Assembly: GCF_004799035.1 (NCBI RefSeq)
Contig: NZ_MWIO01000027.1
Location: forward strand, 1-64,000
Origin: Rhodanobacter lindaniclasticus
GTDB lineage: Bacteria > Pseudomonadota > Gammaproteobacteria > Xanthomonadales > Rhodanobacteraceae
Length of the DNA stretch: 64,000 nucleotides
Reading direction: 5' to 3'
Shown here: piece by piece, positions 84-21,543 of the stretch
Layout: each line of letters opens with the position of its first letter
Numbering within the stretch: position 1 is the stretch's first letter
Position numbers and translations under genes: made by a program
Notes under the pieces: model-generated
What the model saw: the letters and a program-made list of their open reading frames with translations, nothing else
Told to the model about the DNA's origin: nothing
The model's database searches: none

Positions 84-97
84 TTGATGCTGATCAA
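84..97. promoter_or_regulatory. FNR-type box, perfect
   Basis: TTGATgctgATCAA matches the FNR/ANR consensus TTGAT-N4-ATCAA in all ten fixed positions. Its centre is 68 bases before the first start codon of the operon at 159. If it sits at -41.5, the -10 element should begin near 120, where TGAAAT (4 of 6 to TATAAT) occurs. The rest of positions 1-158 shows no gene. Confidence 0.8.
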
Positions 98-158
98 TAC
101 GCTGCCGTGGCGCACGGCGTGAAATGCCCAGCCGACGGCCCCCAGGAACGATAACGCC

Positions 159-500
159 ATGCGAATCATGAGAATCCGCGTCGTCGGCGACGAAACCCGC
201 GCCGAAACCCTCATGAACATGCTTCATACCATGGATGGCGTGGCGCGGGTGGAGGAGATGCCCCTGCCCCGCGCCGGACTCGGCGGCAACGGCGATGCCG
301 TCAGCCACCTCGAAGTGGCCGTAGCCGACGGCGCCGCCCATCGCATCCGCGCCTTCATGGCAGGTGCTGCCCTGCTGATGGATGCCTCCGCGGAATTCGT
401 CGACCGGTTCGGTATCGAGGGACCGCTGGCGGATCGCCACGCATCGCTGGCGCGACATCCGGTTGAGCCAGATCAATCGTCCGCTGCCGACGGGTGCTAA
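159..500 (+). CDS. Hypothetical protein, first gene of an FNR-box operon
   Basis: A 113-residue protein that I do not recognise. The first half (MRIMRIRVVGDETRAETLMN onward) looks like a small alpha/beta regulatory fold: a beta strand, a helix, then a strand with a gly/ala-rich stretch. Residues 45-85 are acidic and alanine-rich. There is no membrane segment or signal peptide. The start could be 159 or the internal Met at 171; no strong ribosome site separates them. It lies 68 bases after a perfect FNR box and 52 bases before the nitroreductase gene, so it is probably the first gene of a three-gene low-oxygen transcript. The function is unknown. Confidence 0.6.
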   Translation: MRIMRIRVVGDETRAETLMNMLHTMDGVARVEEMPLPRAGLGGNGDAVSHLEVAVADGAAHRIRAFMAGAALLMDASAEFVDRFGIEGPLADRHASLARHPVEPDQSSAADGC

Positions 501-552
501 ACCACTCCTGTCGCCGCCTGGCGCGGCTCGGATAGCAGCGGAGGACATGGCC

Positions 553-1691: not shown

Positions 1692-3002
1692 TCAGGCCGG
1701 GCTGGTCTCGGCGGCCACGTCCATCGGCTGCACCGCGCGGGTCTCGTCCAGATGGAACACTGCGTCGAACTGCGCCGGCAGCGATGCGGTGAAGTAGTGG
1801 CTCTGCAACTCGGTGTCCGGGCGGTACAGCACGCCGATGGCGCGCTCGCGCATCGGCGTGCGCAGCGCATGCGCAACCTCGCCCTGCAGCGGCAGGTAGA
1901 AGCGGTCCAGCCGGGTATCGCGGAACAGCGATTCGTAACTGTCCGGCCTGGCCGGCAGGACATCGCGGCACTCGGCTTCGCCATCCCATTCGTACGCGGC
2001 GGTGACGGTGCCGGTGTAGGTGGTGAAGCCCACCAGCAGGGCCTCCTCCGCGCCTGCGCTCTGCCGCACGAGCTGGCCCACGTTCCACTCCCCCGCGTAC
2101 GACATCTCGGTGGCGCGCGCGTCGCCGAGATGGGAGTTGTGCGCCCAGACCACGATCCGGCCCGCGCCGCCCTGCGCGCGCAGGTGGCCCTGCAGGGCTA
2201 GCAGCGTCTCCACCATGTGCTGGTCGCGCAGGTTCCAGCTCTGCGCGCGCGGACCGAACATGGCGCGGTAGTAGGCCTCCCCGCTGCTCACCACCTGCGC
2301 GTTGCGCTCGGCGAAGAAGAACGCGTCCGCCGCGCCGCGCCCGTCGCGCCCGAGGTAATCCGGCGCGCGCTGCCATAGCGCGAGCAGGCGCTCGCGCACG
2401 GCCTGCCGACAGTCGGGCCGCAGGCCATGCACGGCTTCGTAGCCGTAGCGCTGCGGGTCGCGCACGTGGTCGAGCGCGGCATACTGCCGCCTGGCGATGG
2501 CCGCCTGTTCCTCGTCCACGCCGGACAGGTAATCCACCACGGCTTCCGCCGAGCGGTACAGGCTGTACATGTCCAGCCCATAGAAGCCCGCACGCCGCTC
2601 CGACGGCCGGCCGAGGTTGAACTGGTGCAGGGCTTCGGCGAAGCGAAGCACCTCCTCGTTGCGCCACATCCAGCGCGGAAAGCGCCGGAAATCGCCGAAG
2701 GCCGGTGAGGCGTCGGCGTCACGGCCCTCCCCCCGCACGAACAGGTTGATGCGGTAGGCGTCCGGCCAGTCCGCTTCCACCGCCACCGCATCGAAGCCCT
2801 GTTCGGCGATCAGGCGCAGCGTGATGTCGGCGCGCATGCGGTAGAACTCTTCGGTGCCGTGGGTCGCCTCGCCGAGCAGCACCAGGCTGCGCGTCGCTGC
2901 GCTTTCCAGCAATGCGTCGTAGTCGCGCGGGCCGTCCCCCAGCCGCAGGGCTTCGCCGCGGAGCACCTCGAGAACGCCGTGATGGAGACTGGCCATGGCC
3001 AT
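1692..3002 (-). CDS. Erythromycin esterase-family protein
   Basis: A 436-residue member of the EreA/EreB-like (SCO-family) hydrolase superfamily. The family core is seen near residues 40-80: LVLLGEATHGTEEFYRMRAD with the catalytic-type His, then DAVAVEADWPDAYRINLFVR. Further on are RFPRWMWRNEEV and VVWAHNSHLGDARATEM, which carries the second conserved His. Length is typical. Most members in stress clusters are not known to give macrolide resistance, and the true substrate is unknown. It follows the Hsp20 gene by 50 bases on the same strand, the same order as mycobacterial hspX and Rv2030c (whose C-terminal half is this fold). Start at 3002; an in-frame Met two codons later is possible. Confidence 0.85.
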   Translation of the reverse strand: MAMASLHHGVLEVLRGEALRLGDGPRDYDALLESAATRSLVLLGEATHGTEEFYRMRADITLRLIAEQGFDAVAVEADWPDAYRINLFVRGEGRDADASPAFGDFRRFPRWMWRNEEVLRFAEALHQFNLGRPSERRAGFYGLDMYSLYRSAEAVVDYLSGVDEEQAAIARRQYAALDHVRDPQRYGYEAVHGLRPDCRQAVRERLLALWQRAPDYLGRDGRGAADAFFFAERNAQVVSSGEAYYRAMFGPRAQSWNLRDQHMVETLLALQGHLRAQGGAGRIVVWAHNSHLGDARATEMSYAGEWNVGQLVRQSAGAEEALLVGFTTYTGTVTAAYEWDGEAECRDVLPARPDSYESLFRDTRLDRFYLPLQGEVAHALRTPMRERAIGVLYRPDTELQSHYFTASLPAQFDAVFHLDETRAVQPMDVAAETSPA

Positions 3003-3052: not shown

Positions 3053-3499
3053 TCAGCTGACCGTGATCTTGCGCGCGCTGCCGTTTTCCTTTTTCGGCAG
3101 GGTCAGCGTGAGCAGTCCGTTCTCGTAGCGGGCATCGGCCTTGTCGCTGTCCACGTCGCCGGGCAGGCTGAACGAGCGGTAGACCTGGCCGTGATAGCGT
3201 TCCGTGCAGATGTCGCGCTCGTCGTCCTTCTTGCTGGTTTCGCGCTTGACCTCGGCGCTGATGGAGACCTGGTTGCCGTCGATCGACACGTCGATGTCGT
3301 TCTTGTCGACGCCGGGGATTTCGGCCTTCACCGCATAGGAGCGTTCGTTCTCCGACACGTCGATGCGCATGTCGGGAGCGTCCAGCTCCTGCCAGCGGGG
3401 CCGCAGGCCGAAGTCGCGGAAGAAATCCCCGAGCATGGGGGCGCGCGATTCGAACGGGGTCAGGGGCTTGAAGGGATTCCAGTGGGTCAGGTTGGCCAT
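3053..3499 (-). CDS. Hsp20/alpha-crystallin small heat-shock protein
   Basis: A 148-residue ATP-independent holdase chaperone that binds unfolding proteins as oligomers in the cytoplasm. The alpha-crystallin domain spans about residues 45-145: MRIDVSENERSYAVKAEIPG starts it, and the family signature ENGLLTLTLPK lies near the C-terminus. The N-terminal arm (NPFKPLTPFESRAPMLGDFF) is typical. The open frame extends far upstream, but GAGGA nine bases before position 3499 and the conserved N-terminus MANLTHWNPF support this start. A near-perfect FNR box lies 95 bases upstream, and the erythromycin-esterase-like gene follows closely, so the two are probably co-transcribed. Confidence 0.95.
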   Translation of the reverse strand: MANLTHWNPFKPLTPFESRAPMLGDFFRDFGLRPRWQELDAPDMRIDVSENERSYAVKAEIPGVDKNDIDVSIDGNQVSISAEVKRETSKKDDERDICTERYHGQVYRSFSLPGDVDSDKADARYENGLLTLTLPKKENGSARKITVS

Positions 3500-3587: not shown

Positions 3588-3601
3588 GTGATACAGATCA
3601 A
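3588..3601. promoter_or_regulatory. FNR-type box upstream of hsp20
   Basis: GTGATacagATCAA differs from the FNR consensus at one base (the first T). It lies in the 122-base gap between the phosphoribosyltransferase-hydrolase gene and hsp20, centred 95 bases before the hsp20 start codon on the minus strand. Confidence 0.65.
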
Positions 3602-3621: not shown

Positions 3622-4956
3622 TCAGGAAGCCGCGGACTCGACGCCGCCGCGCAGCACCCCGCCGTGCCGCAGCCACCGCGCCAACCACTCGGCGGCCAGC
3701 CCGGCAACCGCCTCCAGCGCGCCGGGTTCCTCGAACAGGTGGGTGGCGTGCGGGACGAGCACCATTTTCGCGGGGCACGCCAGCGCCGCCAGCGCGGCGC
3801 GGTTGAGCGCGATCACCTGGGTGTCGGCGCCGCCCACGATCAGCAGCGTGGGCGCGCGCACGCGGGCGAGCATGTCTTCGCCGGCCAGGTCGGGCCTGCC
3901 GCCGCGCGAGACCACCGCGCCGATCCGCCGGGGATCGCGCGCCGCCAGCACCAGCGCGGCGGCGGCGCCCGTGCTCGCCCCGAACAGGCCCACCGGCAGC
4001 GAGGCGGTACCGGCGTGGCCGGCCGCCCATTGCAGGGCGCTGTCCAGCCGCGACGCCAGCCGGGGAATGTCGAAACGTGCCGGGAGGTCGCGCGCCTCCT
4101 CCTCGGTGAGCAGGTCGAACAGCAGCGTGGCCAGCCCCTGCGCATGCAGCGCATGCGCGACGCCCCGGTTGCGCACGCTCCTGCGGTTGCTGCCACTGCC
4201 GTGGGCGAAGATCACCAGGCCGGCGGCCTGCGCGGGCATTTCCAGGTCGCCGTCAAGCGCGACGCCGCCGGCGTCGATCCGCACGGCTTCCACCGTGGTC
4301 GCCGTGGGTCCGGGGGGACGGGCCAGCAGGCGCATCACCTGCGCATCCTCGACGGCGTCGAAGTCGAGGTAGAACTGGCCCACCGCGCGGAAATGCTCCG
4401 GCGCGGACAGGTACACCAGGTCATCCGCCAGCGCGGCGACTTCCGCCAGGCTGCGCGGCGACGCCACCGGCACCGCGCATACCAGCCGCGCCGGCCGCCG
4501 CGCGCGCACGGCCCGCAGCGCGGCCTGCATGGTTGCGCCGGTGGCCAGACCGTCGTCGACGACGACCACCACGCGCCGGGCCGGGTCGATGGCGCTGTGG
4601 TGCGGGCTGTAGCGTTCGCGCCGGCTCCGTATCGTGGCCAGTTGCCTGGCCGCCTCCCGCGTGACGTAGCGCTCGTCCGCTCCGACCGAGGCGGCTTCCG
4701 GCGTGGTCTGCACCCTGCCTTCCTCGTCGACCGCGCCGATGGCGAACTCTTCGTGGCCGGGTGCGCCGAGCTTGCGCACCAGCACCACGTCCAGTTCGCC
4801 ATCCAGCCGATCGGCCACGATCCGGCCGACCGGCACGCCGCCGCGGGGGATGGCCAGCACCAGCGGATGCTGGCCGCGCAGGAACGACAGCGCCTGTGCG
4901 AGCTGCTCGCCCGCGTCGTCTCGATCGCGGAAAGGACCGGCGTGCCGTTGCGGCAT
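3622..4956 (-). CDS. Phosphoribosyltransferase fused to alpha/beta hydrolase
   Basis: A 444-residue two-domain protein. Residues about 10-220 are a type I phosphoribosyltransferase with the PRPP-binding loop VVVVVDDGLATGATMQAA and the upstream LAIPRGGVPVGRIVAD segment. Residues about 225-435 are a dienelactone-hydrolase-like alpha/beta hydrolase: VIFAHGSGSNRRS oxyanion region, nucleophile elbow GLFGASTGAA, acid in VGGADTQVI and His in VPHATHLF, so a complete Ser-Asp-His triad is present. Substrates are unknown. Mycobacterium tuberculosis Rv0571c, a DosR-regulon protein of almost identical length, has this same fusion. Its start lies seven bases from the stop of the OmpA-like lipoprotein gene, so the two form an operon. 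Confidence 0.88.
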   Translation of the reverse strand: MPQRHAGPFRDRDDAGEQLAQALSFLRGQHPLVLAIPRGGVPVGRIVADRLDGELDVVLVRKLGAPGHEEFAIGAVDEEGRVQTTPEAASVGADERYVTREAARQLATIRSRRERYSPHHSAIDPARRVVVVVDDGLATGATMQAALRAVRARRPARLVCAVPVASPRSLAEVAALADDLVYLSAPEHFRAVGQFYLDFDAVEDAQVMRLLARPPGPTATTVEAVRIDAGGVALDGDLEMPAQAAGLVIFAHGSGSNRRSVRNRGVAHALHAQGLATLLFDLLTEEEARDLPARFDIPRLASRLDSALQWAAGHAGTASLPVGLFGASTGAAAALVLAARDPRRIGAVVSRGGRPDLAGEDMLARVRAPTLLIVGGADTQVIALNRAALAALACPAKMVLVPHATHLFEEPGALEAVAGLAAEWLARWLRHGGVLRGGVESAAS

Positions 4957-4962: not shown

Positions 4963-5559
4963 TCACCCGTTGCCCGGCGCCGCCAGGGTTCCGGCAAAGT
5001 CCACCACCAGCGTGACGCGGCGGTTCGGCTCGGCGCCGTCGCCCCACTTGCCCTTCAGCACCTGGCGGTTCTCCGCCTTGCCGTAGCTGACCGCGCGCAC
5101 CTGGTCGGCCGGCAGGCCACCGGTCTGGACGAGGTAGTCGCGCACCGCCTCGGCGCGGGCCTGGCCCAGGCGCAGGTTGTACGGCTTGCCGCCCGCCGCG
5201 TCGGCAAATCCCTCCACCGTCACCACGGCCTGCGGGAAGTGGCCGGAGACGACTTTCGCGAAGTCGTCCAGCATGGGCTTGTCCTCGTCGCGCAGGGTGG
5301 CCTTGTCGAACGCGAAGTGGGAGGCGACGTCGACACGGATACGCCCCGGCGATTGGGCGATCTTCGCGTCGTACTCGGCGAAGCGCTGCTGCATCTGCTG
5401 CGCAAGGCTGTCGATTTGCTGCTGCTGCCGCTGGTCGGTGGCACGCAGTTCGTTGACGGTCGCGTCGAAGTCGGCCTTCCTGACGTAGGTCTGGCAACCG
5501 CCTATGGCGACGACCAGGGCACCCAGTGAAACAACGGCGAAACGGCGATAGGCATGCAT
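4963..5559 (-). CDS. OmpA-family peptidoglycan-binding lipoprotein
   Basis: A 198-residue predicted outer-membrane lipoprotein. A signal sequence ends in a lipobox at Cys22 (VVAIGGC). Next is a Gln-rich coiled coil (DQRQQQQIDSLAQQMQQRF). A C-terminal OmpA domain covers about residues 75-190, with HFAFDKATLRDEDKPMLDDF and the peptidoglycan-contact part NLRLGQARAEAVRDYL, ending EPNRRVTLVV. The open frame begins further upstream, but AGGAGGA seven bases before position 5559 and the position of the signal peptide fix this start. It leads the operon with the downstream phosphoribosyltransferase-hydrolase fusion. A degenerate FNR box lies about 100 bases upstream. Confidence 0.88.
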   Translation of the reverse strand: MHAYRRFAVVSLGALVVAIGGCQTYVRKADFDATVNELRATDQRQQQQIDSLAQQMQQRFAEYDAKIAQSPGRIRVDVASHFAFDKATLRDEDKPMLDDFAKVVSGHFPQAVVTVEGFADAAGGKPYNLRLGQARAEAVRDYLVQTGGLPADQVRAVSYGKAENRQVLKGKWGDGAEPNRRVTLVVDFAGTLAAPGNG

Positions 5560-5719: not shown

Positions 5720-5733
5720 TTGATCGTCATCAA
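5720..5733. promoter_or_regulatory. FNR-type box, perfect
   Basis: TTGATcgtcATCAA matches the consensus fully. Its centre is 76 bases before the start codon at 5803. TAGCCT at 5755-5760 lies where a -10 element would be expected if the box is at -41.5. Confidence 0.8.
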
Positions 5734-5802: not shown

Positions 5803-6234
5803 ATGCCGAATACCTGGATCCTGGTCGCCGATGCCGCCAGGGCGCGCCTGTTCGAATCGCTCCGCAGGGGAGCCGAGCCCGTCGAGATAGCCTGCTACTA
5901 CTACCCCGACGGCCGCTCGCCGGGGCGCCATCTTGAGCACGGCCGGCTGCCCCGCACGCAGGAAAGCAACAGCCCGAGCCGCCACGCGATCGAGCCGAAG
6001 ACCTCGCTGCGCGACAAGCACGCGCAACGCTTCGCCGAGACCCTCGGCGCCGTCGTGCGGCAGGGGCGGCGCGAGGGCCGCTACGACAGGCTGGTGCTGG
6101 TGGCTCCGCCGCGCTTCCTCGGTGCGCTGCATGACAGCCTGGACGAGGCCACCGCGGCGTGCATCGTGGGCGAGGTGCGTCGCGAGCTGATGACGCTGTC
6201 CCCGGCCGAACTGCGCGCCCACCTGCCCCGCTGA
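5803..6234 (+). CDS. Host-attachment family protein
   Basis: A 143-residue protein of the Host_attach family (PF10116), named from plant-associated bacteria. It is structurally related to the release-factor-like bacterial archaeo-eRF1 folds. Visible features are NTWILVADAARARLFES at the N-terminus and the C-terminal half RYDRLVLVAPPRFLGALHD with DEATAACIVGEVRRELM. The loop at residues 45-70 is rich in charged residues. It is cytosolic with no signal peptide. The actual activity is unknown; nucleic-acid or ribosome binding is suspected from the fold. It is transcribed alone behind a perfect FNR box, which groups it with the stress genes around it. Confidence 0.85.
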   Translation: MPNTWILVADAARARLFESLRRGAEPVEIACYYYPDGRSPGRHLEHGRLPRTQESNSPSRHAIEPKTSLRDKHAQRFAETLGAVVRQGRREGRYDRLVLVAPPRFLGALHDSLDEATAACIVGEVRRELMTLSPAELRAHLPR

Positions 6235-6413: not shown

Positions 6414-7133
6414 TCAACGCGCCGATTCCCACGGCAGGCGCACCACCGCCCCGGTCAGCGGCTCCACCGTGACGAGCTGGTCGTCCACGCGCACCACGCC
6501 GGCCATGTTCTCGACCAGCACCACCAGCGCGTTGCGGACGGCATCGTTGACCAGGACGCCGCGCAAGGTCACCACGCCGCCGCGCACGTCCGCGTGCATG
6601 CCCTGCCGCGATGCCCATGCCTGCGCGTCCAACGCGCGAGCGATGCGGCGGGCGATGGCCGCGTCGGAGAGATCGGGCGGCGCCTCGTCGGGCGCCGTCT
6701 CGACAAATGCCCGCAGCAGGTCGGCGCGGCTGAGGATGCCCACCAGGCCACCGCTGCCGACTACCGGCAGGCGCTTGACGTGATGCTGCTCCATCTTCCG
6801 CACTGCCTCGTCCAGCGGCGCGTCGGCGGCAATAGTGACCACCTCGCGCGTCATCACCTCGCCGACGCGGCGTGCGTGCGAGGCGGTGTAGTCGTGCGCC
6901 AGCCGGCCGGGGCCCAGCACGAAAGCGAGCCAGGCGGGACGCCTGCGCTCGGTGCCGGTCTCGACGCGGCGCATCAGGTCGCCCTCGGTCAGCATGCCGG
7001 CCAGCGCACCCTGCGCGTCCACCACGGGCAGGCCGCTGATGTGCTCGCCGAGCATGGTGCGCATGGCGTCGCCGATCGGCGTATCCGGCGTGACGGTGAC
7101 GACGTGGGTGGACATGGCTTGGCGGACTTGCAT
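6414..7133 (-). CDS. Tandem CBS plus BON domain protein
   Basis: A 239-residue protein. Two CBS motifs form a Bateman module that usually binds adenine nucleotides: residues about 1-60 (VRQAMSTHVVTVTPDTPIGD, HISGLPVVDAQGALAGMLT) and 92-150 (VMTREVVTIAADAPLDEAV, HHVKRLPVVGSGGLVGILS). A BON domain follows at about residues 165-235 (VRGGVVTLRGVLVNDAVRN). The frame is open to 7211, but GGGAG seven bases before 7133 and the CBS start MQVRQAM support this start. The CBS part is comparable to the mycobacterial hypoxic response protein Hrp1. A near-perfect FNR box at 7211-7224 lies between this gene and the divergent dodecin gene. Confidence 0.9.
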   Translation of the reverse strand: MQVRQAMSTHVVTVTPDTPIGDAMRTMLGEHISGLPVVDAQGALAGMLTEGDLMRRVETGTERRRPAWLAFVLGPGRLAHDYTASHARRVGEVMTREVVTIAADAPLDEAVRKMEQHHVKRLPVVGSGGLVGILSRADLLRAFVETAPDEAPPDLSDAAIARRIARALDAQAWASRQGMHADVRGGVVTLRGVLVNDAVRNALVVLVENMAGVVRVDDQLVTVEPLTGAVVRLPWESAR

Positions 7134-7210: not shown

Positions 7211-7224
7211 TTGATGCACGTCAA
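7211..7224. promoter_or_regulatory. FNR-type box in a divergent promoter
   Basis: TTGATgcacGTCAA has one mismatch to consensus. It stands between the CBS/BON gene (start 84 bases away, minus) and the dodecin gene (start 106 bases away, plus). TACGTT at 7247-7252 is in the right register for a plus-strand -10 element. Confidence 0.65.
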
Positions 7225-7323: not shown

Positions 7324-7530
7324 ATGAACGCCATCGCCAAGACCATCGAGATCACCTCCGCATCCGCCAAGGGCATCGAGGATGCCGTGCAGTCCGGCCT
7401 GCTCAAGGTTGCCACCACCATCGACAGGATCCAGGGCGCATGGGTCAGCGACATCAAGGTGCGCACGTCGGCGAGCGGCGACGTCACCGAGTGGCGCGTC
7501 TGCCTGCGCGTGACTTTCCTCGTGGACTGA
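7324..7530 (+). CDS. Dodecin
   Basis: A 68-residue dodecin, a small protein that assembles into a dodecameric hollow sphere and stores flavins such as FMN or lumichrome. The conserved pattern is complete: AKTIEITSASAKGIEDAVQ, then the flavin-stacking Trp in IQGAWVSDIKV, and the terminal strand EWRVCLRVTFLVD. GAGG seven bases before the ATG is a good ribosome site. It heads a plus-strand stretch with two universal stress protein genes and is the first of two dodecins in the window. Confidence 0.95.
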   Translation: MNAIAKTIEITSASAKGIEDAVQSGLLKVATTIDRIQGAWVSDIKVRTSASGDVTEWRVCLRVTFLVD

Positions 7531-9785: not shown

Positions 9786-9799
9786 TTGATGCAGATCAA
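9786..9799. promoter_or_regulatory. FNR-type box, perfect
   Basis: TTGATgcagATCAA matches the consensus fully and is centred 62 bases before the BON-protein start on the minus strand. TGAAAA at 9754-9759 (minus) is a possible -10 element a few bases from the expected place. Confidence 0.8.
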
Positions 9800-11391: not shown

Positions 11392-11421
11392 CGTCCACCC
11401 TCCTTCGTTGACCGGATCGGA

Positions 11422-13420: not shown

Positions 13421-14143
13421 ATGCCTGAGCCACTACATCTGCTGGTCGTGGATGACGACACCGGCGTGCTGGATCTGCTGCGTCGCTATTTCACGGGCCA
13501 GGGTTTCACGGTCAGCACGGCGGCCGACGGCGCCGGGATGCACACCGTGCTGGCGCGCCAGCCGGTCGACCTGGTGCTGCTCGACCTCGGCCTGCCGGGC
13601 GAGGACGGCCTCGAGTTGACGCGCCAGTTGCGGCGAAACTGGGACGGCGCACTGATCATCCTCACCGGCCGCGGCGAATCGGTGGATCGCGTGGTCGGCC
13701 TGGAGCTGGGCGCGGACGACTACGTCACCAAGCCGTTCGAGTTGCGCGAACTGCTGGCGCGCGTGCGCAGCGTGCTGCGGCGAAGCGCGCCGACCGCCGG
13801 CAACCCCGGCAAGCAGGACGAGGCGACGTTCCGTTTTGCCGACTACTGCCTCGATCCGCTGGGACGCACCTTGCGCAACGGTCACGGCGATGCGATCGCG
13901 CTGACCACCGGCGAGTTCGAGCTGCTGCGCGTGTTCGTCGAGCATCCGAACCGGGTGCTGTCGCGCGACGACCTGATGGGACGCACCCATGGCCGCGGCG
14001 CCAGTTCGTTCGATCGTGCCATCGATGTGCAGATCGCGCGACTGCGCCGCAAGATCGAATCCGATGCGGCCAACCCCGAACTGATCAAGTCGGTGCGGGG
14101 CGCCGGCTACCTGTTCGCGGCGCGCGTGCAGACGGTGCGCTGA
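13421..14143 (+). CDS. OmpR-family response regulator
   Basis: A 240-residue two-component response regulator. The receiver domain (residues 1-120) has the acidic pair in LLVVDDDTGVLD, the phosphoacceptor Asp55 in LVLLDLGLPGEDG, and the Lys in DDYVTKPFELRELL. The C-terminal winged helix (about 140-235) has LTTGEFELLRVFVEHPNRVL and RGAGYLFAARV. The downstream hybrid kinase starts on the base after its stop codon, so the pair is co-translated. It is an atypical pairing, as the kinase also carries its own receiver. It is probably the local DNA-binding output of that kinase. Confidence 0.95.
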   Translation: MPEPLHLLVVDDDTGVLDLLRRYFTGQGFTVSTAADGAGMHTVLARQPVDLVLLDLGLPGEDGLELTRQLRRNWDGALIILTGRGESVDRVVGLELGADDYVTKPFELRELLARVRSVLRRSAPTAGNPGKQDEATFRFADYCLDPLGRTLRNGHGDAIALTTGEFELLRVFVEHPNRVLSRDDLMGRTHGRGASSFDRAIDVQIARLRRKIESDAANPELIKSVRGAGYLFAARVQTVR

Positions 14144-16180
14144 ATGCCCTCCCCGCCTCCTGCCAGCGTCAGCCTGGTCATGCTGCGCACCTGGTTCGGC
14201 ATCTCGCCCGACGCGATGGTCGCCGTGAACCAGGAAGGCAGCATCGTGCTCGCCAATGCGCAGGCCGTGCGCATGTTCGGCTACGAGGGCGAGGCGCTGC
14301 TGGGCCAGCCGCTGGAGGTGCTGTTGCCCGAACCACTGCGGCATGCCCATCGCATCCATCGCCAGGATTTCATGGTCAATCCGCGCGTGCGCCCGATGGG
14401 CATCGGCTACGAGTTGATGGGCGTGCGCTCCGACGGCGAAGCGTTTCCCGTCGAGATCGGCCTGAGCCCGATCAGCACCGAGATCGGCGCGGTCGCCATC
14501 GCCTCGGTCCGCGACATCTCCGACACGCGGCGGGTGCGGCAGGCCCTGGCGCGCGCGCAGCAAGACAATTTTCTCGCGCAGATCGGCCGGCTCGCGCTGG
14601 AGTCGCCGGACTACAAACTGGCGATCCGCCGGATACCCGAACTCGTCGCGGCGGCACTGGACGTGCCGGCCGTCGCCATCCTCTCCACCGACTGGCATGG
14701 CAGCGGGCTGGGCGTGCGTGCGGCCACAGGGCTGGACGGCCCGACGGCACAGGCGATCGCGGCCATCTTCGGGCAGACCGGTTTCGTGCGCGGCAGTTTC
14801 GGCAGGGGAAGCCGCCATGCCGTCACGGTCGACTCGCTGCGCGAAGGAGGTCACGCCGCCATCCTCGCCAGCCTGGCCGAGGCCGGTTTCCACGACGTGG
14901 CAATGGTCCCGCTGTTCGGGCGCCACGAGCCGCTGGGGGCGCTGATTGCGCTCGCGGCAGAGCCGGTCGGCTTCGACCACGACCGGCTGGGCTTCCTGCA
15001 GGCGGTCGCCAACCTGCTGGCGGCAGCCGTGCAGCGCAGCCGCAGCGAGGAACAGTTGGCCCATGCGCGGCGGCTCGATGCGATCGGCCAGCTCACCGGT
15101 GGCGTCGCGCACGACTTCAACAACCTGCTGACGGTGATCTCGGGCAATCTGCAATTGCTGGAGGCCGAATTGCCCGATCGCACGGACCTGCTCGAGGTCA
15201 CCGGCAGTGCGCTGCGTGCGGTGGAGCGCGGCGCCGACCTCACTCGCAGGCTGCTGGCATTCGCGCGCCGGCAGCCGCTGCAGCCGCGCGCGGTGGTGCC
15301 CAAGCCGCTGCTGGACGAACTCGGGAACATGCTGAGGCGCACGCTCGGCGAAGCCATCGCGATGGAAGTGGCGTGCGCCGCGGAGGTGCCGGACGTCTAC
15401 GCGGACGCGAACGAGCTGGATACGGCCCTGGTCAACCTCGCGCTGAACGCGCGCGATGCCATGCCGCGCGGCGGACGTCTGCGCATCGCGGCGCGCGAGC
15501 TCGTGATCGATGACGCCTCCAACGGCTGGAAGCTGCCACCCGGCCGCTACGTGGCATTCGAGACCAGCGACACCGGTACCGGCATGGCACCGGACGTGCT
15601 GGCCCACGCGCTGGAGCCGTTCTTCACCACCAAGGAGGTCGGCAAGGGCAGCGGCCTCGGTCTCAGCATGGTGTACGGTTTCGCAACCCAGTCCGGCGGG
15701 AGTCTGTCGATCGACAGCCGGCTCGGCTATGGCACGCGCATCGAGCTGCTGCTGCCCGTGGCCAGGGCGCCGGCCGCCGCCGCGACGGAGGCAAGGCCCG
15801 CGCACGACGCCGCGCACGGACGACGCGCCACCATTCTGGTCGTCGAGGACGAGGCCGATGTGCGTACCGTCGCGGCACGGCTGCTGGCGGCGTTCGGTTA
15901 CCAGGTCATCCCTGCGCAAAGTGCGCGCGAAGCGCTGGAGCTGCTTGCCGGGAACCCGACGGTGGACCTGCTGTTCTCCGACGTGATGCTGGGCCGCGGG
16001 ATGGATGGCGTCGAACTCGCCCACGAGGCGCGCCGCCGGCGGCCCGGGCTCGCGGTGCTGCTCGCGTCCGGCTACCGGGGACGGCAGGACGGCTCGACCG
16101 CACCCTTCCAACTGCTGCGCAAACCCTATCGGCGCGAGCAGCTGGTCGATGCCGTGCGCCAGGTCCTTGAGGACGCGTGA
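14144..16180 (+). CDS. Hybrid sensor histidine kinase, PAS-GAF-HisKA-HATPase-REC
   Basis: A 678-residue cytosolic sensor with no membrane segment. Domains: PAS about 15-130 (DAMVAVNQEGSIVLANAQAV); GAF about 150-295; HisKA with phosphoacceptor His323 in GQLTGGVAHDFNNLL; HATPase with N-box LVNLALNARDAMPRGG and G-boxes DTGTGMAPDV and GKGSGLGLSM; C-terminal receiver from about 560 with ILVVEDEADVR, Asp613 in LLFSDVMLG, and Lys in QLLRKPY. The PAS and GAF domains could bind a cofactor or small molecule such as haem, oxygen or nitric oxide, but no ligand can be assigned. It is coupled to the response regulator directly upstream, and the Fnr-like gene follows convergently. Confidence 0.93.
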   Translation: MPSPPPASVSLVMLRTWFGISPDAMVAVNQEGSIVLANAQAVRMFGYEGEALLGQPLEVLLPEPLRHAHRIHRQDFMVNPRVRPMGIGYELMGVRSDGEAFPVEIGLSPISTEIGAVAIASVRDISDTRRVRQALARAQQDNFLAQIGRLALESPDYKLAIRRIPELVAAALDVPAVAILSTDWHGSGLGVRAATGLDGPTAQAIAAIFGQTGFVRGSFGRGSRHAVTVDSLREGGHAAILASLAEAGFHDVAMVPLFGRHEPLGALIALAAEPVGFDHDRLGFLQAVANLLAAAVQRSRSEEQLAHARRLDAIGQLTGGVAHDFNNLLTVISGNLQLLEAELPDRTDLLEVTGSALRAVERGADLTRRLLAFARRQPLQPRAVVPKPLLDELGNMLRRTLGEAIAMEVACAAEVPDVYADANELDTALVNLALNARDAMPRGGRLRIAARELVIDDASNGWKLPPGRYVAFETSDTGTGMAPDVLAHALEPFFTTKEVGKGSGLGLSMVYGFATQSGGSLSIDSRLGYGTRIELLLPVARAPAAAATEARPAHDAAHGRRATILVVEDEADVRTVAARLLAAFGYQVIPAQSAREALELLAGNPTVDLLFSDVMLGRGMDGVELAHEARRRRPGLAVLLASGYRGRQDGSTAPFQLLRKPYRREQLVDAVRQVLEDA

Positions 16181-16186
16181 AGCGCA

Positions 16187-16909
16187 TTACTGCAACGTGC
16201 AGGGCGTGCCGACGCAGGCGCGCAGCTTCGGGATGTCCAGCAACCGCACCTCGCGGCGAAGCACCGAGATGTACTCGAGCTTCTCCAGGTGCGACAGCGC
16301 CCGGCTCACGGTCTCGTGCTTGAGCGCGAGGAAACTGGCGATGTCGGCGCGCCCCATGCGCAGGATGAAGTGACGGGCGCTGAAGCCCAGGCGTGCAAGG
16401 CGGGAGGCGAGATCCAGCAGGAACGCAGCCACGCGCTGTTCGGCCGGCAAGGTCCCTATCACCAGCATCCACACGCGGTCGCGCCGGATTTCCTCGGCCA
16501 GCGCCGCCGCCAGCCGCACCTGCAGCTCGGGAATGCGCTGCAACGCATCCAGCACCAGCGGGTACGGCAGCTCCCAGATCTCGGCATCGTCCAGCACGAC
16601 GGCATCGCAGGTGTGCGCGCCGAGCCCGATGGACTCCACGCCGAGCAGGTCGCCGTGCATGCGGAAGCCTGTCACCTGTTCGCGGCCGTCCTCGGACAAC
16701 TCGCAGGTCTTCAGGAATCCCGCATGCACGAAGTGCAGCGCGCGGAACGGCTGCCCGTTGCGATACAGGTACTGGCCTGCCCTCACCTTGCGGCGCGTCA
16801 CGACCATGTGCCGCTGCAAGTGCGCAATATCCAGCTCGAGCGGCGCGTCGTACCCGGGTGGCTGGGCATTCCCGGTCTGGGCAGCGAGGGGTGCGAACGA
16901 GGTATCCAT
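16187..16909 (-). CDS. Crp/Fnr-family transcription regulator lacking the FNR cysteine cluster
   Basis: A 240-residue regulator. The cyclic-nucleotide-like sensor domain (about 25-145) has AGQYLYRNGQPFRALHFVHA and QVTGFRMHGDLLGVESIG, which closely follow FNR. The helix-turn-helix has the recognition helix KHETVSRALSHLEK with Glu199, Ser202 and Arg203, matching FNR E209, S212 and R213 that read TTGAT half-sites. Its only cysteines are at 69, 101, 232 and 237; the N-terminal triplet that holds the FNR iron-sulfur cluster is absent. GGGAG seven bases before 16909 sets the start. It is the obvious candidate regulator for the FNR boxes in this window. Its effector is unknown. Confidence 0.92.
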   Translation of the reverse strand: MDTSFAPLAAQTGNAQPPGYDAPLELDIAHLQRHMVVTRRKVRAGQYLYRNGQPFRALHFVHAGFLKTCELSEDGREQVTGFRMHGDLLGVESIGLGAHTCDAVVLDDAEIWELPYPLVLDALQRIPELQVRLAAALAEEIRRDRVWMLVIGTLPAEQRVAAFLLDLASRLARLGFSARHFILRMGRADIASFLALKHETVSRALSHLEKLEYISVLRREVRLLDIPKLRACVGTPCTLQ

Positions 16910-17030
16910 GCCGTACTCCCGATGATGGTTGCGTTTGCCGCCAAGGTTAGGCCGCGCCCGCAACGGCATGATGTCGGCCCGGCAACACCGTGTAACAGCG
17001 CGTAACCGCGGTCCGCCACGGCACGGCGAC

Positions 17031-17044
17031 TTGACGCACGTCAA
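17031..17044. promoter_or_regulatory. FNR-like palindrome in the divergent fnr-like/nrdJ-like promoter
   Basis: TTGACgcacGTCAA is a perfect inverted repeat centred 61 bases before the gene at 17099 and 128 bases before the Fnr-like regulator start. GATAGT at 17066-17071 is a 4-of-6 -10 element in the register expected for a box at -41.5 driving the plus-strand gene. Confidence 0.65.
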
Positions 17045-17098: not shown

Positions 17099-18178
17099 AT
17101 GATCGAGCCGCGCCCGTTGTCTCCGTTCATCGACCTCGCCGCCGTTGAAGCCTGGGATGCCTGGTTCCGATGGCGCGAGCACTCCGTGCTGCACGATGTT
17201 TCCATCGAGGACACATGGTGGCGGGTGGCCTGCGCGCTGGCCGCGGCCGAGGCCGGCAATGAAGGTCCGGCGTGGCGGTTGCGCGTCATGGATGCGTTGG
17301 CCAGCTGGCGGCTGCTTCCCGACCCGCGGGTACTTGCGAAGGCCGGTACCGGCCTCGCCGAGCGGCGCCACGGCACGCTGCACGCCGTGCTGAACGCGGC
17401 GTGCTTCGTGTCGCCCGCAGACGCTCCGCACGCGGCCATCGACACGGCGGCGCTGACCGATTGCGCGGCTCTGGCCGTGCGGGCCCTCGACAACGCTGCG
17501 CTGCTGGCCGGCAACGTGACGACGCGTCTCCGGATTGGTGTCGTGGGTATCGCCGATGCGCTGGCGCTGCTCGGATTGGAGTACGACAGCGAAGCGGGCC
17601 GCACGCAGGCGGCGGCAGTGGCGCAGGCGCTCGCGGAAGGTTGCCTGGGTGGCAGCATCGCGCTCGCCGCATCACGGGGAGGCTGCGAGCGCGACACGCG
17701 GGGACTGCTTGCCCGCGCCATGCTGCGCGGCGCGCCACAGGAACTGCTGAAGGATGCCGCCCGCCATGGCGTGCGCCATACGCAACTGACCGCGATCACC
17801 TCGCAACCCCGACTCGCGCTGCTCGCCAATAATGTGGCCGACGCCGTGGATCCCCTGCGGGGCGAGGACCATGCCGGGTTGATCATTGCAGCGGACGGGC
17901 AACGCACGATGCGCTCCCCCGGTTACGCGCTGAACGTGCTGCGTAGCGGCGGGAGTGGACCCAGCCACTGGCGGGACACACTGGAGCATCAGTCGTGGTT
18001 CGCGCAGATCGCGATGCGCGCCGCACTGCAGCCCTGGATGGACAGCCCCATCGCCTATCCGCTGCTGGCGACCCACCTGCCCGACGAGCCACAGCGGCTC
18101 GCGGCCCGGATGCTCACGGCACAGCACGGTCTTGGCGAACCCGCATGGCGCAGCTCGGCGGAAGTGCAGGCGGTCTAG
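17099..18178 (+). CDS. Degenerate class II ribonucleotide-reductase-like protein
   Basis: A 359-residue protein whose middle resembles the C-terminal half of the adenosylcobalamin-dependent ribonucleotide reductase barrel. Compare DCAALAVRALDNAALLAGN with the usual AVRFLDNVID region, LRIGVVGIADALALLGLEYD with the usual IGLGVMGFADLL-x-LGIPYD, and YDSEAGRTQAAAVAQALAE after it. The finger-loop region is replaced by HTQLTAITSQPRLALLANNV, so the IAPTGTIS motif and active-site cysteines are lost. It is much shorter than NrdJ/NrdZ (about 690 or more). It cannot be a reductase on its own; a regulatory or scaffold role is possible. The mycobacterial DosR regulon contains a related gene, nrdZ. Confidence 0.6.
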   Translation: MIEPRPLSPFIDLAAVEAWDAWFRWREHSVLHDVSIEDTWWRVACALAAAEAGNEGPAWRLRVMDALASWRLLPDPRVLAKAGTGLAERRHGTLHAVLNAACFVSPADAPHAAIDTAALTDCAALAVRALDNAALLAGNVTTRLRIGVVGIADALALLGLEYDSEAGRTQAAAVAQALAEGCLGGSIALAASRGGCERDTRGLLARAMLRGAPQELLKDAARHGVRHTQLTAITSQPRLALLANNVADAVDPLRGEDHAGLIIAADGQRTMRSPGYALNVLRSGGSGPSHWRDTLEHQSWFAQIAMRAALQPWMDSPIAYPLLATHLPDEPQRLAARMLTAQHGLGEPAWRSSAEVQAV

Positions 18179-18276: not shown

Positions 18277-18290
18277 TTGACGTGTGTCAA
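18277..18290. promoter_or_regulatory. FNR-like palindrome between convergent genes
   Basis: TTGACgtgtGTCAA is a perfect inverted repeat. It lies after the stop of the nrdJ-like gene and after the 3' end of the second dodecin gene, so no annotated start codon follows it on either strand. It is either a chance site or the promoter of an unannotated RNA. Confidence 0.35.
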
Positions 18291-18332: not shown

Positions 18333-18536
18333 TCAGCCCAGTACGAAGCTGACCCGCATGCACACGCGCCAAGCCGTGATCTTCCCGTCGGGGTCGGTGA
18401 CGACCGTGGTTTCGCTGAGCCAGGCACCCTTGATCCCGTCCAGCGTGCCAGCGGCTTTCTCCAACCCTCTTTGGACGGCGTCTTCCACGCTGTCGGGCGA
18501 TTCGGCAATGATCTCGATGACTTTCGCGACGTTCAT
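18333..18536 (-). CDS. Dodecin (second copy)
   Basis: A 67-residue dodecin, beginning MNVAKVIEIIAESPDSVEDA, with the flavin-stacking Trp in IKGAWLSETTVV and the final strand AWRVCMRVSFVLG. It resembles the dodecin at 7324 but is clearly divergent in sequence. It is a flavin-binding dodecamer in the cytosol. AGGAAG upstream of 18536 is a good ribosome site. A perfect FNR box lies 69 bases upstream, so this copy is probably induced at low oxygen. Confidence 0.95.
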   Translation of the reverse strand: MNVAKVIEIIAESPDSVEDAVQRGLEKAAGTLDGIKGAWLSETTVVTDPDGKITAWRVCMRVSFVLG

Positions 18537-18598: not shown

Positions 18599-18612
18599 TT
18601 GATGCCGATCAA
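18599..18612. promoter_or_regulatory. FNR-type box, perfect
   Basis: TTGATgccgATCAA matches the consensus in all fixed positions and is centred 69 bases before the second dodecin start on the minus strand. Confidence 0.8.
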
Positions 18613-18653
18613 CTCGGGGCCGGTTTGGCCAAGCGAGTGGTTGCGGTGGCGCG

Positions 18654-19547
18654 TCAACCAGCCTCACCGCCGATCGCACGCAACGCCTCGGCCACCGCTG
18701 TGCTCACGTCGATGGCGGCCAGCTCGCCCGGCACGGTATTGGTGGTCACCAGCCGGGCAATGCCGGCGCCGTGCAGCGCGTCGCGTGACTGGCGCGCGAG
18801 CAACCCATGCACCACCACCGCAACCAGCGCAGCTTGCCCGAGCTGCCCGCGTACACCCCTGGCCGTGTCGATCAGCGTGTGCCCCGAGGCGACGATGTCG
18901 TCCAGCAGCACCGGCATGTGCCCGCGCCAGCGCGCCAGCGACGGCAGCCGCACGCTGACTTCGCGGTCGCCGCGCCGCTGTTTGCGGGCAATCACGCAGG
19001 GTGCGTCGAGCGATGCGGCCACCGCCTTCACCCATTGCGCGCTTTCGCCGTCGGGGCCGACCAGCAGCGGCGCACGCACGTTGGCGCGGATCCACGCGGC
19101 CAGGTCCGGTGCTGCCGTGACGACGGCGGTTTGGCAGTCGAACACTTCCGCCAGGTGGTGGATGCGGTGCAGGTGCGGATCGACGGTGAGTACCCAGTCG
19201 AAGACCTTGCCGAGCAGCTCGCCCATCACCCGCGCCGAGACCGCCTCGCCGGGGTGGAAGCGCCGGTCCTGGCGCATGTAGCCCAGGTACGGCGCCACCA
19301 GCCCGAGCCGGGTCGCGCCGAGTTCGCGCGCCGTGGCCGCTGCGGCCAGCAGCGGAAACAGCTTGGCGTCGGGTCGGTGGAGCGAGCACAGCAACGCCAC
19401 GTTCCCCCGCGGCGGCGTGGCCAGCCGCAGCAGCGATTCGCCATCGGGGAAGCGGTGCAGTTCCAGCTCGCCGCGCCGCCAGCCGGCATGCCGGCAAAGC
19501 GCCTTGGCGAAAGCCGCGTTGCCGGGCAGCGCATACAGGAGGTTCAT
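18654..19547 (-). CDS. Divergent ribose-phosphate pyrophosphokinase
   Basis: A 297-residue PRPP-synthetase-family protein. Family motifs are present but diverged: LHRFPDGESLLRL, APYLGYMRQDRRFHPGEAVS for the ATP/flexible region, DPHLHRI for the metal site, and the PRPP loop VLLDDIVASGHTLIDTA. It is shorter than housekeeping Prs (about 315) and closer to the accessory forms that sit next to phosphorylase genes. Its start overlaps the stop of the phosphorylase by four bases. Inferred role: PRPP formation or recycling of ribose phosphates released by the phosphorylase. It is not the cell's main prs gene judging by context and divergence. Confidence 0.85.
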   Translation of the reverse strand: MNLLYALPGNAAFAKALCRHAGWRRGELELHRFPDGESLLRLATPPRGNVALLCSLHRPDAKLFPLLAAAATARELGATRLGLVAPYLGYMRQDRRFHPGEAVSARVMGELLGKVFDWVLTVDPHLHRIHHLAEVFDCQTAVVTAAPDLAAWIRANVRAPLLVGPDGESAQWVKAVAASLDAPCVIARKQRRGDREVSVRLPSLARWRGHMPVLLDDIVASGHTLIDTARGVRGQLGQAALVAVVVHGLLARQSRDALHGAGIARLVTTNTVPGELAAIDVSTAVAEALRAIGGEAG

Positions 19548-21094
19548 GTGCCGATCTCCTCGGAAGTGGCGCCCAGTGAGACGATGGACGGGTGGCGCGC
19601 GACGTACTCCAGCGCGTAGGCCAGCTCGCCCGGACTCTGCGCATGCAGGGTGAACAGCGGCTGGCCACAGGCCACCATGTCACCCACGCGCACGTCGATG
19701 GCCAGGCCGGCCAACGGAGACGCCGGGGCGCCGGCGAGCTTGGCCGCCTGCGCGAGGCGGCGATTGTCGATCGCCTCGACCCGGCCCTCGCGCGTGGCCA
19801 CCACCGGATACCGGTGCGGCGCGACGCCCGGACTGCGCAGGCCGCCCTGAGCCTCGCAGATGGCCTGGAACTGGCGCCAGGCCCGCCCGGAATCCAGGCA
19901 TTCGCGCGCCATCGCCAGCGACGACCCGCTTTCCGCGCGGCCGGCCGTGTCGAGCACCACCGCCGCCAGCGCCAGCGCCCGCTCGCGCAGATCCCGCGGT
20001 TGCGCCGGCAGGTTCTGCAGCACGGCCAGCACGTCGTGCGCTTCCAGCGCCGGTCCCACGCCACGGCCGACCGGTTGCAGCCCGTCGGTACGCAGCACCG
20101 TCAGGCCCAGGCCGAAGCGGCCGGCCACCGCATGCAGCATCCGCTCCAGCATCCGCGCGTGGCGGGCCTCACGCACCTTGGCGGTGGGGCCTACCGGCAT
20201 GTCGATCACCACGTGGGTCGAACCGGCGGCGACCTTCTTGGAGAGGATCGACGCGACCAGTTGCCCCGGGCTGTCGATGTCCAACGCGCGCTCGATGCGG
20301 ATCAGCGTGTCGTCCACCGGCGCCAGGTTGATCGCCCCGCCCCACACCAGGCAGCCGCCGGTGCGCTCGACGGTCCGCCGCATGCGCCCGACGTCCAGGT
20401 CCACCGGCGTGAGCACCGCCATGGTGTCGGCCGTACCCGCCGGCGAGGTGATCGCCCGGGACGAGGTCTTGGGCATGACCAGCCCCAGTGCGGTGGCAAT
20501 CGCCACCACGATCGGCGTGGTGCGGTTGCCCGGCAGCCCTCCGACACAGTGCTTGTCCACCACCATCGGGCTCGGCCAGCGCAGCCGCGTGCCGGTGTCC
20601 ACCATGGCGCCCGTCAGGGCGACCACTTCGTCCAGGGCGAGATGGTCACCGCTGCAGGCGGCGATGAAGGCCGCCATCTCGATGTTCGAGTAACGCTGCG
20701 CCGCGATGTCCGCGACGATCGCGCGCAGTTGGGCCTCGGCCAGCGTGCCCCCGTAGAGTTTGGCGCGCACGTTCGAGAGCGATTCGACACTGGGAGGATG
20801 GGCCAGTGTCACGTGATCGTCCGCCGTCGGCCGCAGGCTCGCCCAGACCGATTCGCTCAGGCCGATCTGGTCGGGTGCCAGCCCGTTGCCCTGCACGATC
20901 GCCAGGTTCGCCATCAACCGGTGACCGCCCAGGCTCAGCTGCAGGCGCGACTGCGGGCCGAAGCCCTCGCCCTGGCAAGCGGGCGAGCCGTGCGGGAGAT
21001 AGACCACGTGTTCGCCGCCGGTATCGATGCCGATGCGGTGCGGGCGCAGGCGCTCGCCGGTCAACGACGGGTCAGGCGAGGGCGCAGCAGACAC
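19544..21094 (-). CDS. Archaeal-type thymidine/AMP phosphorylase
   Basis: A 516-residue nucleoside or nucleotide phosphorylase. It has the extra N-terminal domain of archaeal-type members (LRPHRIGIDTGGEHVVYLP, GLAPDQIGLSE), followed by a thymidine-phosphorylase core with DKHCVGGLPGNRTTPIVV and KTSSRAITSPAGTADTM. The start is a GTG at 21094: GGGAG lies seven bases upstream and the N-terminal domain begins just after. Archaeal relatives cleave AMP and other NMPs with phosphate to give ribose-1,5-bisphosphate; bacterial ones are usually annotated thymidine phosphorylase. Coupling to a PRPP-synthetase-like gene suggests a nucleotide ribose-salvage branch. An FNR-like box lies 158 bases upstream. 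Confidence 0.85.
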   Translation of the reverse strand: MSAAPSPDPSLTGERLRPHRIGIDTGGEHVVYLPHGSPACQGEGFGPQSRLQLSLGGHRLMANLAIVQGNGLAPDQIGLSESVWASLRPTADDHVTLAHPPSVESLSNVRAKLYGGTLAEAQLRAIVADIAAQRYSNIEMAAFIAACSGDHLALDEVVALTGAMVDTGTRLRWPSPMVVDKHCVGGLPGNRTTPIVVAIATALGLVMPKTSSRAITSPAGTADTMAVLTPVDLDVGRMRRTVERTGGCLVWGGAINLAPVDDTLIRIERALDIDSPGQLVASILSKKVAAGSTHVVIDMPVGPTAKVREARHARMLERMLHAVAGRFGLGLTVLRTDGLQPVGRGVGPALEAHDVLAVLQNLPAQPRDLRERALALAAVVLDTAGRAESGSSLAMARECLDSGRAWRQFQAICEAQGGLRSPGVAPHRYPVVATREGRVEAIDNRRLAQAAKLAGAPASPLAGLAIDVRVGDMVACGQPLFTLHAQSPGELAYALEYVARHPSIVSLGATSEEIGT

Positions 21095-21543
21095 GCGGTA
21101 CTCCCAGGGACAGGCGCGGCTCGAGGGCGGGCCGGAGGTGGGTGCCCGGCCGGCGCACCCGAGGGTGCCTGGTGTCGACAGTGCGCATCGGCCTCGTCCT
21201 GCAGCAGCGGTTGCCGCGAGCATCGCCGTTTGCGGGAAACGCCGCTTGACCAGGATCAAATCGCCGGCGTGCCGGCGCGGCGGATCAACTCCCCCCCCCC
21301 GCCGCAAGCGCCCGGCAGCCGCGAAAGCTGCAGCCAGCGCCGTGCACTTTGCTGCGCACTCCCCGGCAGTGCGTCCGGGTTGGTACGAGGTTATCCGTGA
21401 CCACCCGGGCCGATACGCGGTTGCCCGCCGTGGAGCACGGAGACAGGCCTGGGTCTGGTGCTCCGTGCGACGTCATCCGCCCTGGATAGCGATGCGGTTT
21501 GGAGCCCGGAGTCACTTCAAGTGTTTCGCGCAGGCGACGAATG
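21095..21543. other. Intergenic region with FNR-like box, G/C tract and hairpin
   Basis: 449 bases without a supported gene. It holds the FNR-like box at 21246-21259, a run of ten C on the plus strand at 21291-21300, and an inverted repeat at 21432-21464 (GGAGCAC/GTGCTCC) downstream of the FMN reductase gene. The hairpin has no T run, so it is only a weak terminator candidate. Confidence 0.5.
21246..21259. promoter_or_regulatory. FNR-like box upstream of phosphorylase operon
   Basis: TTGACcaggATCAA has one mismatch to the FNR consensus. It precedes the phosphorylase GTG start by 158 bases on the minus strand. Confidence 0.6.

Follow-up and report, generated by a model that had tools for sequence, protein, structure and literature searches.

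We analysed a window of 64,000 nucleotides from Rhodanobacter lindaniclasticus (contig NZ_MWIO01000027.1, positions 1 to 64,000), in which stress genes, including one for a fused phosphoribosyltransferase (PRT) and alpha/beta hydrolase, are gathered at positions 84-21259 together with boxes of the FNR type. This region is very probably a box-controlled island for survival at low oxygen, with low-oxygen control being suggested by the presence of the FNR-type boxes, and it probably belongs with islands of the lxa type, with an hFixL-FxkR-FixK cascade of its own in control. The gene families, the boxes and their spacing from -10-like hexamers, the conserved K-box and the grouping of one regulator with FxkR can be read directly from the DNA. 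According to the available parts of two papers, low oxygen induces the lxa locus of Burkholderia cenocepacia (BCAM0275-BCAM0323), which is linked to persistence under anoxia, and a comparison of lxa with the DosR regulon appears in the discussion of the first (PMC6127331, PMC9104464). Thus, the DosR parallel of such a locus, from which the initial annotation of this DNA had started, is not new. What looks like the new part is a trio of regulators at 13421-16909, a gammaproteobacterial cascade resembling hFixL-FxkR-FixK; in the literature searched, we found this cascade only in Rhizobiaceae, the FxkR papers listed there being related to rhizobia or plants by title or abstract, and the mentions of Gammaproteobacteria alongside hFixL and FxkR proved to be unrelated.

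The pattern TTGAYN4RTCAA occurred 10 times in the window, compared to 0.09 expected from shuffled sequences, and a pattern scan placed nine of these sites, without assigned strand, in the island: 84-97, 5720-5733, 7211-7224, 9786-9799, 13296-13309 (upstream of the response regulator gene), 17031-17044 (between the FNR-like gene and a gene resembling ribonucleotide reductase, RNR), 18277-18290 (more than 400 bp from any gene start, on both strands), 18599-18612 and 21246-21259. Across the genome (4.06 Mb) there were 34 sites, cf. 5 for a reversed-pattern control. Nine of the 34 fell within 21.2 kb, where 0.18 were expected (P = 4e-13), and eight formed a second box-rich region of 41 kb on contig C16 (136391-177733; P = 4e-9), both P values being somewhat too small because the two stretches are bounded by boxes themselves. 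Eight of the nine island boxes stand upstream of a gene, with their centres at 61.5-188.5 bp from the nearest start codon. A TANNNT hexamer followed the box at 21-22 bp in 4 of 13 promoter directions, with one match at all other offsets from 0 to 49, in a test that included three relaxed box matches (463, 3588 and 5652). The initial annotation was right that FNR-type boxes stand here instead of a DosR box, for which the window held no site with up to 3 mismatches. Outside both islands, more FNR-type boxes were present on contigs C1, C18, C23, C29, C33, C44, C79 and others.

In the rhizobial hFixL-FxkR-FixK cascade, as described in the available parts of three papers, the OmpR-type regulator FxkR binds a K-box, GTTACA-N4-GTTACA, before fixK (PMC7888657, PMC4999443, PMC7769827). 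We hold with considerable confidence, judging from sequence, that the trio is wired in this manner. Its first gene (13421-14143, + strand) encodes an OmpR-type response regulator of the FxkR type (PF00072 and PF00486), with 51% identity to the pRL9 protein FxkR9 and 53-54% identity to a regulator of R. etli p42f that hardly differs from FxkR9. When 21 OmpR-type regulators were placed in a tree, the window's regulator joined FxkR and its own relatives (95/91), and 12 paralogs from its own genome fell outside; these were the paralogs that passed a length filter, the genome having 14 OmpR-type matches besides this regulator. The second gene (14144-16180, + strand) encodes a hybrid sensor kinase for which a domain search gave the order PAS-GAF-HisKA-HATPase-REC. 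The kinase is hFixL-like, being 46% identical to hFixL9 across kinase and receiver and having the same domains, but with one PAS domain instead of two and with an additional GAF domain. Its PAS domain matched FixL (1d06, 6.9e-18) and may carry heme, as the position of the residue that we take to be the heme-ligand histidine of 1d06 is conserved, also in the kinases of loci L068, L069 and L071. The third gene (16187-16909, - strand) encodes a CRP/FNR regulator, identified by family and residue checks, with a FixK-like role and without N-terminal cysteines (the first cysteine does not occur before residue 69). It retains the E-x-x-S-R pattern of the recognition helix, presumably FNR-specific. 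Elsewhere in the genome, an FNR copy on contig C70 has C27, C30, C36 and C118, which we take to be the canonical pattern of an Fe-S FNR, and an FNR-like copy on contig C16 lacks the third cysteine. Both promoters of the trio contain FNR boxes (13296 and 17031), and relatives of all three proteins recur together in three loci bearing the PRT-hydrolase fusion (L068, L069 and L071).

The promoter of the FNR-like gene contains a K-box with three half-sites, GTTACG-N4-GTTACA-N4-GTTGCC (GTTACGCGCTGTTACA then GTTGCC; 16981-17006, - strand). With its one mismatch, it is the only K-box site in the genome at up to one mismatch; since the reversed pattern has five such sites in the same genome, it is the place of the K-box that counts and not its number, and at up to 3 mismatches the window held 8 sites vs 7.7 expected. 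TANNNT stands 31 bp past the K-box. The triple repeat also precedes the FNR-like gene in all three of L068, L069 (one mismatch) and L071. A search of 398 genomes of the order gave 70 exact K-boxes in 61 genomes, and in the window's own family K-boxes outnumbered the reversed pattern by 25 to 7. Of these 70 sites, we inspected 30 together with 1.5 kb of flanking DNA to the left and right, 24 in the window's family and 6 elsewhere. Twenty of the 30 stood 67-145 bp before an FNR-like gene (20 of 24 in the window's family, 0 of 6 in other families), and 18 of these 20 stretches also contained a relative of the kinase. Together with L068, L069, L071 and the window, these 20 sites made a set of 24 promoters, some of them near-copies, and in 19 of the 24 TANNNT lay exactly 31 bp past the third half-site, with one match at any other offset from 0 to 49. 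None of the 24 FNR-like proteins, with start codons chosen by script, had C..C.{3,8}C in the first 45 residues; the L068 protein keeps two cysteines with CxxC spacing. In pRL9, K-boxes stand before fixK9a and between fixK9b and fxkR9; the fixK9a K-box had no TANNNT at the 31-bp distance, and the R. etli p42f stretch had no K-box with up to 2 mismatches. An exact K-box was also seen at 19353 of a betaproteobacterial record (L126), with relatives of the response regulator nearby.

The co-occurrence of the island families with FNR boxes in relatives, proposed as a check by the initial annotation, was observed in 11 gammaproteobacterial PRT loci (8 fused, 3 unfused). The 20 island families gave 40 matches in these loci. 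In 20 control stretches from such genomes, of which 16 were gammaproteobacterial and 4 actinobacterial, they gave 4. FNR-type boxes numbered 35 in the loci and 3 in the controls, all three in a single control stretch. This stretch was L200 (G030:C1:3000001-3020000). The window genes outside the island (n = 32) gave 2 matches in the loci and 7 in the controls. This comparison left out L061, L067, L070 and L116, which were short, and L141 (20.6 kb); all 16 gammaproteobacterial loci together gave 45 matches and 46 boxes, with no family and no box in L141. Five of the 16 had no island family beyond PRT/hydrolase, and matches to the response regulator, universal stress protein (Usp) and FNR-like families in PRT loci were partly generic. 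No member of the CBS-BON, cydA-like, RNR-like, PRPP synthase, phosphorylase or FMN-reductase families turned up in any of the 11 loci. Rhodanobacter sp. T12-5 has its genes for phosphorylase and PRPP synthase just outside the compared locus, in L055. Contig C16 carries three Usp genes, two cation P-type ATPases, phosphoketolase, PTA, acetate kinase, a second FNR-like gene, a beta-CASP metallo-beta-lactamase and a NorB-family protein. Relatives of this set and of the island, on contig C30, stand side by side within ~22 kb in T12-5 (L054 and the start of L055), the congener whose fusion protein is closest to that of the window. This joint locus includes PTA, acetate kinase, phosphoketolase, Usp and P-type ATPase genes, a K-box with its FNR-like gene ~5 kb left of the PTA gene and, within the 20 kb of L054, eight boxes. 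The full PRT-hydrolase fusion was present in 8 others of an order-wide sample of 200 genomes, and at E 0.001, 224 of 296 actinomycete genomes gave a match, in many cases to a single domain. A smaller set, consisting of hydrolase, PRT, erythromycin-esterase-fold (Ere) and PRPP-synthase-like genes, was found on P. phymatum pBPHY01. A haloarchaeal plasmid (Haladaptatus salinisoli, L053 4992-6958) has genes for a hydrolase, a PRTase and a CBS protein in succession.

The initial annotation had described the island as repeating the DosR regulon of M. tuberculosis family by family. The families do overlap: in the available parts of the literature, the DosR regulon and the OsdR regulon of Streptomyces share with the island nitroreductase, PRTase proteins, Ere fold, Hsp20, CBS and Usp, but they have other regulators and other boxes (PMC5309233, PMC4410610, PMC5069765). 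An Acg type of nitroreductase, a working NrdZ and a DosS/DosR system were not borne out. The nitroreductase does belong to PF00881, but none of its 11 matches at E <= 0.1, a search of PDB entries only, is named Acg. The RNR-like protein (359 aa) matches part of PF02867 but lacks NxCxE, which we take to be the catalytic motif of class II RNR, and had no PDB relative at E 0.1. A GAF-containing kinase and a response regulator are both present, but the regulator is of the OmpR type and groups with FxkR, DosR being a NarL-type regulator, and the kinase combines a FixL-like PAS domain with HisKA. The DosS sensor carries heme in its GAF-A domain, as stated in the available part of PMC4082495. The CBS protein has an extra BON domain here, and Rv2626c (CBS) was only a weaker match (1xkf, 5.3e-8).

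One PRT gene family appears to have come under two low-oxygen switches of unrelated kinds, FNR in gamma- and alphaproteobacteria and a DosR-type regulator in some actinobacteria. We searched the 250 bp before each PRT gene for the FNR box and the DosR-type core GGGACN4GTCCC at up to one mismatch. Among gammaproteobacterial loci, with PRT fused or not and the window excluded, 9 of 15 had an FNR box; so did 9 of 11 from alphaproteobacteria, 1 of 24 from betaproteobacteria and none of 51 from actinobacteria. The DosR-type core was present in 9 of the 51 actinobacterial loci (cf. 1.6% of other windows), leaving 42 without it at this threshold, and in none of the gamma- (0/15), alpha- (0/11) and betaproteobacterial (0/24) loci; a control motif occurred in no locus. 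The excess held against other promoters of the same loci, the core being present at 9/51 vs 5/391 in actinobacteria, and the FNR box at 9/11 vs 13/145 in alphaproteobacteria and 9/15 vs 33/207 in gammaproteobacteria. At up to 2 mismatches, the 10-base core was found in 29 of the 51 actinobacterial loci, with 22% in other windows. Earlier searches with a 20-base DosR consensus (up to 5 mismatches) matched 1 of 21 actinobacterial loci, and a 14-base core searched over whole loci gave 6 sites vs 1 for a control motif at up to 2 mismatches and 26 vs 13 at up to 3. A first FNR-box run had given 5/10 for gammaproteobacteria (strict), 8/10 for alphaproteobacteria (up to one mismatch), 1/23 for betaproteobacteria (strict), 0/3 for Bdellovibrionota-type loci (left out of the later 250-bp test), 1/10 for unclassified loci and 0/21 for actinobacteria. 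On Rhodococcus opacus pR1CP1, a DosR-type core lies 78 bp before the PRT gene. This plasmid has genes for CBS, Hsp20, GAF, PRT-hydrolase and PRPP synthase proteins close together (L048 2788-14279).

Of 120 loci, 13 encoded PRT, hydrolase and Ere domains in one fusion (9 alphaproteobacterial, 2 Bdellovibrionales/Oligoflexia and 2 unclassified; 865 aa in Rhizobium), and the available part of PMC4410610 describes Rv2030c as PRT with Ere. That these domains are fused in different ways suggests a single pathway. In a PRT tree, which included no named mycobacterium, the window's domain formed one clade with beta- and gammaproteobacterial sequences (SH-aLRT 96), and the actinobacterial and alphaproteobacterial forms lay elsewhere; the betaproteobacterial L051 stood on the actinobacterial side, and the hydrolase tree was less sharp. 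The PRT-hydrolase fusion showed five changes of state on the tree, compatible with one or two origins. A recent transfer of the PRT-hydrolase from actinobacteria was considered and is unsupported by the PRT tree. A transfer of Ere from actinobacteria is hinted at by a 30-row tree in which gammaproteobacterial Ere grouped with some actinobacterial Ere (98), but an approximately unbiased (AU) test did not reject a single proteobacterial clade (p-AU 0.122). The initial annotation had suggested a module moved between distant phyla or built twice; recent transfer found no support in the PRT tree, and the wiring was apparently built at least twice, once with FNR and once with DosR-type boxes. We lean towards convergent rewiring, in which FNR/FixK in proteobacteria and a DosR-type regulator in actinobacteria each captured the PRT-hydrolase, and a resident hFixL-FxkR-FixK cascade commands a dormancy-like set in Rhodanobacteraceae and Lysobacter relatives.

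We propose that, as oxygen falls, the hybrid PAS kinase (14144-16180) would signal to the FxkR-type regulator (13421-14143), which would bind the K-box at 16981-17006 and turn on the FixK-like FNR protein (16187-16909). This protein and the Fe-S FNR of contig C70 would then bind TTGAT-N4-ATCAA boxes before chaperone, Usp, CBS/BON, dodecin, nucleotide-salvage and hydrolase genes in the island, and before Usp, ion-pump and fermentation genes (phosphoketolase, PTA and acetate kinase) on contig C16. The direction of signalling, activation by low oxygen and the role of each enzyme are what we infer in this scheme; control of the whole island by the trio seems likely. Several observations weigh against it. 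Identity between the FNR-like protein and FixK9b is only 30%, and the protein scored best against the FNR family, below that family's cut-off, and because of this it is FixK in role and not by descent. A paralog from the same genome (L246, 44% identical) and one betaproteobacterial response regulator stood just outside the FxkR clade, and the position of the distal heme-pocket arginine, presumably a FixL residue, is not conserved in the kinase PAS domain. The reversed K-box was about equally frequent across the order (61 sites by hand count vs 70), and relatives of the response regulator and of the FNR-like protein were found in 2 and 1, respectively, of the 20 control stretches. The PRT-hydrolase gene (3622-4956) follows closely behind ompA and has no directly preceding box, the order of island genes differs among species, and only 5 of 35 same-genus genomes had a strong match to PRT or hydrolase (one or both domains), 3 of them fused. 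Related loci were counted as independent, which makes P values too small. Finally, the C70 FNR, with all four cysteines present, could act alone at the boxes.

Were this so, the island would be driven by the ordinary Fe-S FNR only, and the trio would be a neighbour regulating something else. FNR-type boxes require no second regulator, the C70 copy carries the canonical cysteine pattern, and congeners that lack a strong match to the fusion, e.g. G006, likewise have a K-box ahead of an FNR-like gene. We nevertheless regard this explanation as unlikely, as the trio lies inside the island and has promoters that themselves contain FNR boxes, the presumed FNR-specific helix pattern is intact in its FNR-like protein, and relatives of its three proteins occur together in fusion-bearing L068, L069 and L071. 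FNR-like proteins without Fe-S cysteines include DNR, and the island might answer nitric oxide or denitrification instead of oxygen, with the FNR-like protein as a Dnr-type NO sensor. A NorB-family gene 4 kb from the first C16 box and a weak match of the FNR-like protein to 3dkw point in this direction, but the FNR-like gene has a K-box and an hFixL-like kinase partner, an arrangement that answers oxygen in rhizobia, which makes a nitric oxide response distinctly improbable. The passage of a whole DosR-type persistence module between actinobacteria and this lineage would fit the overlapping families, the hsp20-ere order and the grouping of gammaproteobacterial with some actinobacterial Ere. 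However, the PRT domain groups with betaproteobacteria, a single proteobacterial Ere clade was not rejected, the DosR box is absent and the regulators differ, so that we give such a passage hardly any weight. The island as an lxa-like set under its own hFixL-FxkR-FixK-like trio would offer a test case of phyla attaching unrelated low-oxygen sensors to one survival gene set that includes relatives of DosR-regulon proteins. Rv0571c and Rv2030c are listed as uncharacterised in the available part of PMC5309233, and, if our reading is true, Rhodanobacter strains could help reveal the roles of PRT-hydrolase and esterase-fold proteins.

Compared by name only, lxa shares Usp, Hsp20, BON, nitro/flavin reductase and zinc alcohol dehydrogenase genes with the island, and metallo-beta-lactamase and PTA genes with contig C16 (PMC6127331). 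Unlike lxa, the set here is split across two contigs, joined in T12-5, and has the hFixL-FxkR-FixK-like trio; it also has PRT-hydrolase, Ere, phosphorylase and PRPP synthase genes, four for which lxa was not checked. With the Rhizobiaceae cascade, the trio shares a hybrid PAS kinase with receiver, an OmpR-type regulator, a K-box in front of the gene for an FNR relative that lacks Fe-S cysteines, and boxes of the form TTGAT-N4-ATCAA. It differs in being gammaproteobacterial, in the GAF domain that replaces one PAS, in the low identity of the FNR-like protein to FixK9b, in the FNR box of the response regulator promoter and in the boxed genes, which are survival genes rather than genes for cbb3 oxidase or nitrogen fixation.

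For the island proteins, Pfam and NCBIfam bore out the families listed in the initial annotation at their places. At the left end, a gene of 113 aa without a Pfam match (159-500, +) follows the box at 84-97, whose centre lies 68.5 bp before the start codon; next are the nitroreductase-family gene (547-1212, +; 221 aa; PF00881, 3.4e-22; best solved relatives 3hj9, 8cqs and 3hoi) and a DUF3775 gene (1209-1658, +; PF12616, 9.8e-30). On the - strand, the ere gene (1692-3002; PF05139, 1.6e-120) lies downstream of hsp20 (3053-3499; PF00011, 7.8e-21), which is preceded by a near-box, GTGATACAGATCAA (3588-3601), with TANNNT at +21. The PRTase-hydrolase gene (3622-4956, -; 444 aa; PF00156, 7.5e-20, with DLH/hydrolase matches; PDB relatives 2o2g and 1wd5) and the OmpA-family gene (4963-5559, -; PF00691, 3.9e-20) follow. 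A Host_attach/baeRF family 12 gene (5803-6234, +; PF10116, 2.8e-32; PF18856, 6.7e-29) has the box at 5720-5733 with TANNNT at +21, and a dodecin gene (7324-7530, +; PF07311, 2.4e-15) has that at 7211-7224 with TANNNT at +22; between them lies the gene for a protein with two CBS domains and BON (6414-7133, -; PF00571, PF04972). Two usp genes (7561-8394, +, 277 aa, PF00582 in the C-terminal part, 4.6e-11; 8447-8884, +, PF00582, 1.3e-32) are followed by a gene for three BON domains (9080-9730, -; PF04972, 4.6e-49; box 9786-9799) and a zinc alcohol dehydrogenase family gene (10031-11026, -; PF08240, 2.6e-32). Beyond the trio stand the RNR-like gene (17099-18178, +; NF005401, 1.3e-17) and a second dodecin-like frame, judged by eye (18333-18536, -), with the centre of its box (18599-18612) 69.5 bp before the start. 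Last come genes for a ribose-phosphate diphosphokinase (PRPP synthase) subfamily (18654-19547, -; NF005537, 5.3e-108) and an archaeal-type thymidine/AMP phosphorylase family (19544-21064, -; NF003338, 3.8e-184; box 21246-21259), both exceeding the cut-off; the phosphorylase likely starts at a TTG at 21064, and its family search used the part from the ATG at 20914.

As base 1 of contig C30 is the window start, the island may extend further left. The stretch 11263-12549 encodes a CydA-like protein (375 aa) and, by eye, a CydX-like frame of 42 aa with no adjacent CydB; the sole CydB match of the genome is on contig C34. At 12595-13020, a usp-like frame is interrupted by a frameshift. Beyond ~24 kb, the window contains efflux-like and then core genes, judged by eye.

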